This document shows positions 16,941-48,291 of a stretch of 64,000 nt of DNA, piece after piece. This DNA is from Guyparkeria halophila (GTDB lineage: Bacteria > Pseudomonadota > Gammaproteobacteria > Halothiobacillales > Halothiobacillaceae). Below the pieces are notes generated by a model, which had not been told where the DNA came from, did not search any database, and was given only the letters and a program-made list of their open reading frames with translations. Position 1 is the stretch's first letter. Each line of letters opens with the position of its first letter. A program made the translations under genes and the position numbers. The stretch is from positions 1,805,501-1,869,500 of the forward strand of contig NZ_CP140153.1 in the NCBI RefSeq assembly GCF_034479635.1, written 5' to 3'.

Positions 16941-17558
16941 TCAACCACGGCTGAAATGACGGACCACCGGCTCGGGCACCAGGTAGCGCAGTGATCGGCC
17001 CTGATCGATGAACCCGCGCAAGGTGGTCGCCGAGATATCCAGGCGGGTAATGGCCACCGGCACGATCCGCCCGACCGGCGCATCGGCCGACGCATGGGCC
17101 AGCATGGCCGGATCGACTCGGCGCTCGGCCAGCCACTCGGCGGCCTTTCCCTCGGCCTGTGAACCCGGCCGGGTCGCGACCGCGATGTGCGCGAGATCAA
17201 GAATGCGTTCGACCTCGTGCCAGCCCGGCAGACCATTGAAGGCATCCATGCCCATCATCAGCACCAGCGGCTCGCCCGGAAACTCGGCGGCGAATTCGGC
17301 CAGCGTGTCGGCGGTGTAGGACGGCCCGACCCGTCGATGCTCGCGGTCATCGAGCACGAACCGCGGTTCATCGGCAATCGAACGGGCCACCAGGTCCAGT
17401 CGCGTGGTCGGGTCGAGCAGTGGCTCGCCCCGATGGGGCGGGATCGCCGCCGGCACCAGGTGAACCCGGGACAGACCCAGCGTCTCGGCCACCTCGGTCG
17501 CCAGACGCAGGTGACCGATGTGGACCGGGTCAAAGGTGCCGCCGAAGATGCCAATCAT
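16941..17558 (-). CDS. nadD: Nicotinate-nucleotide adenylyltransferase (NadD)
   Basis: NadD adenylates nicotinate mononucleotide to deamido-NAD, an essential step of NAD synthesis. The 205-aa protein has GGTFDPVHIGHLRLA at residues 6-20 (the nucleotidyltransferase HxGH motif) and ISATTLRGF near the C-terminus, a variant of the usual ISSTxIR block. The ribosome binding site GAGGAG lies 7 bp before the ATG and falls inside one arm of a long inverted repeat (see 17559-17700), which suggests control of translation. The upstream gene is proA. Confidence 0.95.
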   Translation of the reverse strand: MIGIFGGTFDPVHIGHLRLATEVAETLGLSRVHLVPAAIPPHRGEPLLDPTTRLDLVARSIADEPRFVLDDREHRRVGPSYTADTLAEFAAEFPGEPLVLMMGMDAFNGLPGWHEVERILDLAHIAVATRPGSQAEGKAAEWLAERRVDPAMLAHASADAPVGRIVPVAITRLDISATTLRGFIDQGRSLRYLVPEPVVRHFSRG

Positions 17559-17700
17559 GATCCGCTCCTCAGACCTGCTGCGCGGCTCGATTGCGGCGTC
17601 GCGTGCTCGTTCGCTTCTCGCCTATCGACCGGATATGTCTCATCGCTCACTCCGCGGCTCCTTGCACTCAAGCCGCTCGCGACGGCCTGAGAAGCGGATC
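17559..17700 (-). promoter_or_regulatory. Inverted repeat able to pair with the nadD ribosome binding site
   Basis: In the mRNA sense (minus strand) the 17 nt at 17700-17684 can pair along their full length with 17575-17559, using fifteen Watson-Crick and two G-U pairs. The second arm contains GAGGAG, the nadD Shine-Dalgarno sequence, and ends next to the ATG. The arms are separated by 108 nt. It may be a regulatory leader stem, or the ends of a small palindromic mobile element that landed between proA and nadD. Confidence 0.5.
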
Positions 17701-17714
17701 CATTACCAGTCTGA

Positions 17715-18983
17715 TCAGTGACGCGTCTCGCCGTTGCCCAGCACGATGAACTTCTGCGAGGTCAGCCCCTCGAGCCCGACCGGGCCGCGGGCGTGGATCT
17801 TGTCGGTGGAGATGCCGATCTCCGCCCCCAGGCCGTATTCCATGCCGTCGGCAAAGCGGGTCGAGGCATTGACCATCACCGAGGCCGAGTCGACCTCGCG
17901 CAAAAAGCGCCGCGCACGGGTGTAGTTCTCGGTCACGATGCTGTCGGTGTGGTGCGACCCAAAGGTCTCGATGTGCTCGATCGCGGCATCCAGCCCGTCG
18001 ACCACGGCCACGGCGAGGATCGGGCCGAGGTACTCCTCGCCCCAGTCCGCCTCGGTTGCCACGGTCATCGAGGGCACGATGGAACGGGCGCGCTCGCAAC
18101 CGCGCAGCTCCACATCCAGCTCGTCGAAGCGCTTGGCCAGATCCGGCAGCACGGCCTCGGCCACCGCCTGGTCGACCAGCAGCGTCTCCATCGCGTTGCA
18201 GACGCCGTAGCGATGGGTCTTGGCGTTGACCGCGATCGCCTTGGCCTTGTCCAGATCCGCATCCGGATCGATGTAGACGTGGCAGACGCCATCGAGGTGC
18301 TTGATCACCGGCATGCGCGCCTCGCGGGAAACCAGTGCCACCAGGCCCTTGCCGCCACGCGGGATGATGACGTCGATCGCCTCGGGGCTGTGCAGCATGG
18401 CCGTGACCGCCTCGCGGTCAGTGGTCCCGACGATCTGCACGGTCTCGGTCGGCAGGCCGGCGGCCTCGAGCCCATCGCGGATGCAGGCGGCCAGCGCCTG
18501 GTTGCTGTGGATCGCCTCCGAACCGCCGCGCAGGATGGTGGCGTTACCCGACTTGAGGCACAGGGCGGCGGCATCGATGGTCACGTTGGGACGCGACTCG
18601 TAGATGATGCCGATCACGCCCAGCGGCACGCGCATGCGCCCGACCTGGATGCCCGAGGGACGGAATACCGTGTCGGTGATCTCGCCGACCGGGTCCGGCA
18701 GCGCGGCGATCTGGCGCACGCCCTCGGCCATCTTCTGGATGCCGGCGGCATCGAAGGCCAGCCGGTCGATCATCGCCTCGTCCAGCCCATTGGCACGCCC
18801 CGCCTCGAGGTCCTTTTTATTGGCCTCGATCAGCGTGCCGGTGTGCTCGACCAGCTGATCGGCGATCGCGAGCAGCGCCGAGTTCTTCGCGTTGGTGTCG
18901 ACACGGGAGAGCGCCCGCGCCGCCCGCCGGGCCGCCTGGCCCATCGCCTGGATGGTTTCGGTGACGTTGTTCTCGTTGGCCAT
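17715..18983 (-). CDS. proA: Glutamate-5-semialdehyde dehydrogenase (ProA)
   Basis: ProA reduces glutamyl-5-phosphate to glutamate semialdehyde with NADPH in proline synthesis. The 422-aa protein has [19 protein letters not shown] (about residue 105) and the catalytic-Cys region [15 protein letters not shown]. It ends in the typical [16 protein letters not shown] set the start at the ATG at 18983, which has AGGAGA about 10 bp upstream; the open frame extends further but without support. It lies downstream of holA with 86 bp between. proB is not in the window. Confidence 0.93.
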
Positions 18984-47737: not shown

Positions 47738-48291
47738 TTTCTTGCTTGTCCAAGAAAACACCCCAAAAGAAGGACACCCCACGGCTTAGCCCTTCGGGCC
47801 TTCGAGGCCGGACTTACGTCCGACCTCGAAGCCTCACGACCAGCGGCTGACTCGGGGCCGGCTCGACGCGACGTCGTGTCGCGCTGAGCCTCGGAGCGAC
47901 ATCCCTGTCGCTCCGACCCCGGCCACCCGCCGGCCGTGAGGCAAGCCGAAAGGGGAGAAACCTTCGTTGACCGCCGTGCGGCACGATTGCCACCGAAGCC
48001 TCTCCTGCCATTCGAACCCCAACAGCCCAAAGACAACTCGCCGATTGAGTGTGCCTAAAAATTTCAAACGAAGGGTGAGCCCCCTTACGCCTTGCCTCGC
48101 GAGCGGGGAATCGCAGGGTCGGGCCGCCAAGGACGGCGGCCCGAGGTTCGCCGCGACAGGACGTCGCGTCGAACCGACCCGTCCGCGATTGCCCGTTCGC
48201 GAGGCTGATCGCGGCAGCGATCAGGCCCGCAGGGCCAAGGCGTCGGGGTGTCCTTCTTTTCGTCGGTTTTCTTGGACAAGCAAGAAAACCG
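47738..48291. repeat. Long inverted-repeat element beside higBA
   Basis: The arms at about 47738-47805 and 48225-48291 are inverted copies sharing TTTTCTTGCTTGTCCAAGAA (itself a hairpin) and AAAAGAAGGACACCCC. The 420 bp between them hold further palindromic bits and a copy of the repeat at 46871. Frames across it give only Arg-rich, low-complexity protein, so I call no gene in the 884 bp between higB and the gene at 48444. It has the look of a MITE or decayed mobile element; no transposase is present. Confidence 0.65.

Follow-up and report, generated by a model that had tools for sequence, protein, structure and literature searches.

Insertion of a mobile element into a tightly packed operon is usually damaging. 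Prokaryotic MITEs are normally intergenic, and a 2024 review lists effects through promoters, IHF sites, RNase cleavage (RNase III), inactivation, sRNAs and, conceivably, riboswitches or terminators, while the words ribosome, Shine and start codon are absent from its main text (PMC10969869). The element described here, at the start of nadD in Guyparkeria halophila, resembles IS5-derived prokaryotic MITEs in its length (142 bp), matching terminal inverted repeats, short flank duplication, lack of a transposase and many copies, but differs in that, within this genus, its copies cluster where stop and start codons meet in operons and have been retained as long hairpins.

The nearest precedent we found is MITEAba12 of Acinetobacter, whose terminal repeat gives the first codons of the neighbouring gene in three records (PMC6382973); there, as here, a MITE end contributes to the start of the adjoining gene. 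The likeness is one of description, and the MITEAba12 consensus differs in carrying a promoter and two or more stops in each of the six frames; neither a Shine-Dalgarno at its end nor insertion at gene overlaps figures in the portions of its description drawn on here (PMC6382973). Correia elements of Neisseria, also likened by description, are short inverted repeats that lie mostly just upstream of genes and are in some cases co-transcribed, but they affect their neighbours via promoters, IHF and RNase III, whereas here the Shine-Dalgarno lies in the terminal repeat (PMC10969869). Rickettsia palindromic elements (RPEs, about 150 bp) and ERIC are, like the present element, palindromic repeats with open frames (PMC10969869). 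RPEs form in-frame fusions inside genes, whereas the frame here lies between genes, terminating on the next start codon. ERIC elements are about 130 bp long.

Strict termination-reinitiation coupling has been reported in 13 of 14 tested pairs (PMC6728339). The native junctions of relatives without the element are overlaps of the ATGA or TGATG kind at which such coupling occurs; the difference is that here a mobile element sits within the overlap, which it seems to reconstitute at a distance. Among the literature matches listed, none gave a published account of the 142-bp repeat, or of MITEs supplying a Shine-Dalgarno at operon overlaps. A ready-made ribosome-binding site at the edge of the element is an unusual way for a mobile element to be tolerated.

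The window, i.e. the whole 64,000-nucleotide stretch of contig NZ_CP140153.1 that was analysed, contains the following features around the nadD start, all on the minus strand:

17715..18983, minus strand: proA, the upstream gene (named from translation and position; ATG at 18983 placed by eye)
17559..17700, minus strand: MITE-like element of 142 bp with IS5-type ends, between proA and nadD (from repeat copies, covariance model and empty junctions in relatives)
17684..17700, minus strand: left arm, the upstream terminal inverted repeat, GATCCGCTTCTCAGGCC (from arm pairing)
17668..17703, minus strand: predicted short leader frame (MDPLLRPSRAA, then TGA) that begins at the ATG kept on the upstream side and spans the left arm
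17555..17650, minus strand: possible internal frame, predicted, of 31 codons from GTG 17650, with AAGGAG at 17663-17658 (motif placed by eye)
17559..17575, minus strand: right arm, the downstream terminal inverted repeat, GGTCTGAGGAGCGGATC (17/17 paired)
17565..17570, minus strand: Shine-Dalgarno GAGGAG within the right arm (predicted anti-SD duplex -8.8 kcal/mol)
17555..17558, minus strand: ATGA of nadD, the putative right copy of the target duplication (left-side copy decayed)
16941..17558, minus strand: nadD (NF000839 match, E 3.7e-61)

The proA open frame extends further upstream than the ATG at 18983. The stop of the possible internal frame, TGA, overlaps the nadD ATG, and this frame is open through the whole element. 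The initial annotation had described complementary arms that can mask the nadD ribosome-binding site, and its reading of the letters is borne out: 17684-17700 pairs with 17559-17575 at all 17 positions (15 Watson-Crick and 2 G-U), and the downstream arm contains GAGGAG (17570-17565) and abuts the nadD ATG (17558-17556). Pairing extends inward beyond the 17-bp arms, with 45 consensus pairs in 31 copies. On the sense strand, the 181-nt region folds at -78.9 kcal/mol (z -2.88), and 1 of 200 shuffles is equally good. No Rfam covariance-model match to the stem was found at E <= 1 over 17400-17850, and the three gathering-level Rfam matches of the window lie outside this interval. As a separate observation, two TwoAYGGAY RNA matches lie next to each other on opposite strands, at 48092-48207 (+) and 47853-47921 (-), with 58.1 and 46.7 bits.

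We consider it likely that an IS5-type MITE of 142 bp has inserted at the start codon of nadD, its terminal inverted repeats forming the stem, and that this junction insertion preserves translation. The element is a dispersed repeat with IS5-family ends and flanks fitting a 4-bp duplication, it is sited at gene junctions, and the nadD junction itself is mostly empty in the genus.

A genome search with the 181-nt region returned 11 matches at 10 loci, the nadD copy included. Copies elsewhere in unrelated contexts had been named beforehand as a result that would favour a mobile repeat, and the nine further loci, all in unrelated operons, do favour it. The copies in this genome have a common core, and inverted repeats terminate all ten that were read out; single TIR-like matches at 680648 and 1602866 were not counted, the second end being absent within 500 bases. 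A covariance model built from seven copies (R1) detects the element in 11 of 11 genus genomes. By BLAST it is present in 18 of 40 genomes, i.e. its own, 10/10 of the same genus, 7/14 of other genera of the family and 0/15 from outside the family. A core-pattern scan of named genome contigs gave 26 stretches, 25 of them in Guyparkeria or Halothiobacillus; the remaining one (L183), the lone match in Nitrosomonadales, is in Nitrosomonadales bacterium SZUA-261, outside the expected family, and possibly comes from a misnamed bin. The terminal inverted repeat consensus of the family is GGGCACCTCGAAAAACC, and 493 of 544 outer-arm cells are paired across 32 copies of 142 nt (G004 left out). Dispersed copies, terminal inverted repeats, target site duplication and empty sites in relatives, the marks of a MITE, are all found. 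We also considered the variable outer arms as an inverted duplication of the target Shine-Dalgarno, produced by some unusual mode of insertion, and dropped this idea on the wider set, which has one canonical repeat with compensatory drift.

Several variants accompany the 142-bp form. Longer ones (loci L008, L010, L144 and L044; lengths of 209 and 307 bp, and the G010 nadD copy) have extra sequence at the hairpin tip, in several cases with palindromes such as GGATGCAGGCCATCCATGGCCTGCA. Genome G015, from another genus of the family, has a second hairpin element of roughly 110 bp (L071, L073) with similar ends and another interior; it seems abundant, its end pattern matching 63 times forward and 69 times in reverse when 2 mismatches are allowed. 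At the ruvB-ybgC junction of five genus genomes (L008, L012, L013, L014 and L028) the ends of the copy have diverged, mostly to GCGGCTCGACAAACC, and the ybgC frame seems, by eye, to begin with TTG inside the element.

Ten of the 11 genus genomes yielded NadD, and the proA-nadD junction is filled in three of these ten (G000, G007 and G010, the last with a longer tip). It is empty in the other seven, where the distance from the proA stop to the nadD ATG is 7-16 nt. Among other genera of the family, the element occupies 0 of 12 proA-nadD junctions inspected by eye (L058 left out). On the proA and nadD trees the three filled genomes require 2-3 changes, and a single insertion as a clade character is unsupported by these trees; the arms of the three filled junctions share derived letters. 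The history of filling may be one of an old insertion with losses, of exchange, or of repeated gain.

The flanks of the copies fit a 4-bp target duplication. After 9 mis-bounded places were dropped from the 73 parsed, 64 copies had both ends. In 10 of these the 4-bp flanks match perfectly, versus 1.1 expected from cross-paired flanks, and in 26 they agree at three or more of four positions, versus 6.4 expected; 12 copies agree at one position and 11 at none. At nadD the duplication has decayed (AATG / ATGA in register, 1/4).

An IS5-family element of 1277 bp, present as two identical copies in G015, shares these ends, the consensus terminal repeat being identical to its left end at 17/17 positions and to its right end at 16/17. 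The 352-aa protein matches the NF033581 IS5 family transposase model (E 6.8e-92) and Pfam DDE_Tnp_1 (E 3.7e-31). The two IS copies have no 4-bp duplication around them (AATG/TATA and TACG/TTCA), and a search of the 11 genus genomes at E <= 1e-30 detected no related transposase. With none found at that cut-off, mobilisation within the genus would be read from the ends, and since the IS copies also have no matching flanks, we infer the IS5 parentage of the element from the ends together with the flanks of the MITE copies themselves. The second suggestion of the initial annotation, that a small palindromic mobile element supplied the nadD ribosome-binding site, is supported on several counts: 10 loci in unrelated operons, a nadD junction empty in 7 of 10 genomes, 4-bp flank duplications and an IS5-family element with the same ends.

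In this genus most copies of the element occupy the stop/start junction between two co-directional genes. The copies in its own genome lie between co-directional genes, and the genes downstream of them encode or are nadD, a CusA/CzcA-like RND transporter, a YbbP-like permease, prmA, a zinc-binding alcohol dehydrogenase, hvfC, ybgC, sdhB, an FtsE-like ATPase and an AAA-type ATPase, the last with weak NCBIfam matches only, which we read as MoxR-like. Some of the proteins in these downstream families are partial and score below the full-length cut-off; the upstream names accC, ruvB, sdhA, ftsY and proA come from translations and position. Of the 41 genus copies flanked by coding sequence on either side, 32 have a start codon 0-5 nt past the element. 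The 41 derive from a junction set of 64 copies from which 3, and then all 11 rows of G004 (a 64% complete genome), were dropped to leave 50, the GC3 criterion removing 9 more. The junction counts apply to this genus alone (eight copies from another genus stand outside the classification), and both they and the frame counts below include orthologous copies and are hence non-independent.

Junctions that remain empty in relatives reveal what the element enters. Empty ybbA-ybbP junctions have the native overlap ACATGA or AATAATG at the insertion point, and empty accC-prmA junctions have TAATG or TGATG. The motif used for these rows failed in 5 of 27 loci (L164, L166, L171, L175 and L176) and was misplaced in L168 and L169, and the rows for sdhB display the junction in part only. 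Since the insertion points carry native stop/start overlaps, the target duplication tends to take in the stop of the upstream gene together with the start of the downstream gene. Specifically, insertion at ATGA, TGATG or TAATG would restore, through the duplication, the stop of the gene before and the start of the gene after.

The ends of the element bear on the start that follows. Read outward, the terminal repeat is ...GAGGTGCCC, so a start in or next to the duplication gains a Shine-Dalgarno in either orientation; each end (consensus GAGGTG) would place it at a working distance from a start in the duplication. The predicted anti-SD duplex has a mean of -6.4 kcal/mol over 32 of the 38 copies taken, those in which a start lies no more than 6 nt away (3 of the 41 had fewer than 14 pairable outer positions and were dropped). 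Computed on short typed junction strings, the predicted duplex at nadD is -8.8, -6.0 and -8.8 kcal/mol in the filled junctions and lies between -1.7 and -3.5 in the seven that are empty; at ybbP, three empty junctions give -5.7 to -5.9 and the filled one -7.2, and at prmA four empty junctions give -4.1 and the filled one -6.3. Given that the empty ybbP and prmA junctions are already stronger, nadD is the one junction of the three compared where the gain is large. There, a short spacer with a weak predicted Shine-Dalgarno would have been replaced by a strong one held in a hairpin.

The body of the element also appears readable. With a 4-bp duplication the insertion adds 142 + 4 = 146 nt, and the stop of the duplicated ATGA or TGATG falls in frame with the upstream start. 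Within the 5 nt that precede the element, 24 of 32 junction copies have a start codon, and in 18 of these 24 the frame from it traverses the element and stops at -3 to +7 of the downstream start. Shuffled interiors pass in a mean of 10.0 +/- 1.9 of 24 and none of 1000 shuffles reaches 18, while the element reversed in place passes in 8 of 24. Many of the 18 passing leader frames are weak evidence when taken singly, most copies in antisense orientation passing in 54-79% even with a shuffled interior. In the 50 copies, the three frames are open 3, 7 and 28 times in the element's sense and 14, 40 and 36 times in antisense; the shuffled open-frame fractions are 0.26-0.27 and 0.41-0.44, respectively, and some observed frames fall below the shuffles. 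The nadD copy of the window is an exception, its upstream ATG frame ending after 11 codons with no read-through; the G007 nadD copy retains a 49-codon GTG frame. Where the frame is kept, a ribosome from the upstream start would often read across the 142-nt element and stop on the next start, and termination-reinitiation coupling could continue. Insertion at overlaps would thus be tolerated because stop and start are restored, the ends bear a Shine-Dalgarno and read-through coupling is kept.

For nadD itself, the folding model suggests how the start could be released. The six Shine-Dalgarno bases at 17571-17566 have a predicted unpaired probability of 0.000 at 25 C, 0.001 at 37 C and 0.015 at 75 C, and of 0.36 with 17703-17665 held open (the leader at 17703-17668 plus 3 nt). 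The initial annotation had offered an RNA thermometer among its readings, which does not agree with a predicted stem that stays closed up to 75 C. Because exposure is low even at that temperature and higher with the leader open, the site is probably not a temperature switch, no observation suggests a ligand, and the likeliest course is that upstream translation exposes the next start. Translation of the leader would disrupt the left arm, and the Shine-Dalgarno of nadD could thereby become accessible; coupling, masking and release at nadD are all predictions of the model.

Why the arms have remained complementary is a separate matter, on which the copies themselves are informative. In an alignment of 31 of the 32 copies of 142 nt (A3), 94.8% of the cells of the 45-pair consensus are paired and 25 pairs have double changes. 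There are 104 double-changed cells versus 30.7 in shuffled and at most 19 in slid versions; the pairing is maintained by compensatory change, at nadD as well. Relative to the family consensus, that copy has 8 arm pairs altered on both sides and 2 on one side, with 17/17 still paired; among the filled nadD copies, G000 has 8 and G007 has 9 pairs changed on both sides, each with 17/17 paired, and G010 has 16/17 arm positions paired. The inner stem (A3 columns 41-104) consists, by eye, of 1-2-bp stacks between small internal loops, many of them with G opposite A on the element's sense strand. As the hairpin stayed paired while both arms changed, it has probably been subject to a constraint on the RNA, to homogenisation by template switching on the DNA, or to both. 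Given the real covariation of the arms, some effect of the hairpin on translation is possible.

A pure DNA origin for this pattern, in which template switching (quasipalindrome correction) alone keeps the arms complementary and the hairpin is functionless in RNA, is an alternative that we hold to be somewhat improbable. Template switching is a known mutational process that homogenises the arms of inverted repeats (PMC8604942; PMC7202029), and it would yield double changes like those observed without selection. What speaks against it is a modest asymmetry between strands: with copies oriented by host transcription, G-U exceeds A-C by 44 to 13 events in the outer arms (38 copies in 23 junction groups, which were joined by shared 14-mers, some joins being doubtful and the copies related), with G-U ahead in 17 groups, behind in 2 and tied in 4. 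Over the whole hairpin, single transitions give G-U 54 versus A-C 28 (24 copies; 3 of 27 rows dropped), and unpaired positions have no such bias (19 versus 20). This comparison of paired and unpaired positions was also the check for a transcription-linked mutation bias, and its outcome is suggestive rather than decisive. The asymmetry therefore leans toward pairing at the RNA level, and it is modest and not decisive.

Two further proposals give the hairpin a role in the operon message, and we doubt both. According to the first, it is a processing site for RNase III or an mRNA-stability element, as in Correia-containing transcripts, which are cut at their terminal inverted repeats by RNase III (PMC10969869). 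A long stem that lies in a polycistronic message and is kept by covariation would suit such a role, which nevertheless leaves the start-codon position and the read-through frames unexplained. According to the second, an equally tentative extension of the junction-insertion reading, the element would be a mobile cassette for translational coupling. Its length (142 + 4 bp), open frames, Shine-Dalgarno ends and siting at overlaps would be adaptations for entering essential operons, and the hairpin would make downstream translation depend on ribosomes crossing the element, imposing a common control on unrelated operons (proA-nadD, sdhA-sdhB, accC-prmA, ftsY-ftsE and others).

A dedicated nadD switch (thermometer, ligand sensor or protein target) by which the ribosome-binding site is covered and uncovered was the first proposal of the initial annotation, and we now regard it as very improbable. 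The Shine-Dalgarno does coincide with the stem, its predicted unpaired probability at 37 C is low (0.001), and 8 of 17 pairs at nadD changed on both sides with all of them paired. Yet only 3 of 10 genus genomes carry the element at nadD, a patchy distribution that speaks against a ligand- or protein-binding leader, and the identical kind of hairpin occurs at many unrelated genes. The stem matches nothing in the Rfam search given above, and the thermometer form in particular has to contend with the minimal exposure predicted at 75 C. Lastly, a chance stem or ordinary terminator-like palindrome has next to no probability: strong folds are common in this GC-rich region (shuffles of the 181-nt region average -66.7 kcal/mol), but a repeat family with conserved sequence and covarying pairs refutes it, and the stem ends at an ATG with, by eye, no T run after it.

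If the junction-insertion reading is true, portable ribosome-binding sites at the ends and a readable body would show a way for selfish DNA to lodge precisely at the starts of genes, and such a family would rewire the translation of essential genes such as nadD, leaving behind hairpins that are kept paired by selection or by template switching. It would also call for caution, as covarying stems over ribosome-binding sites can be the domesticated ends of mobile elements rather than riboswitches.
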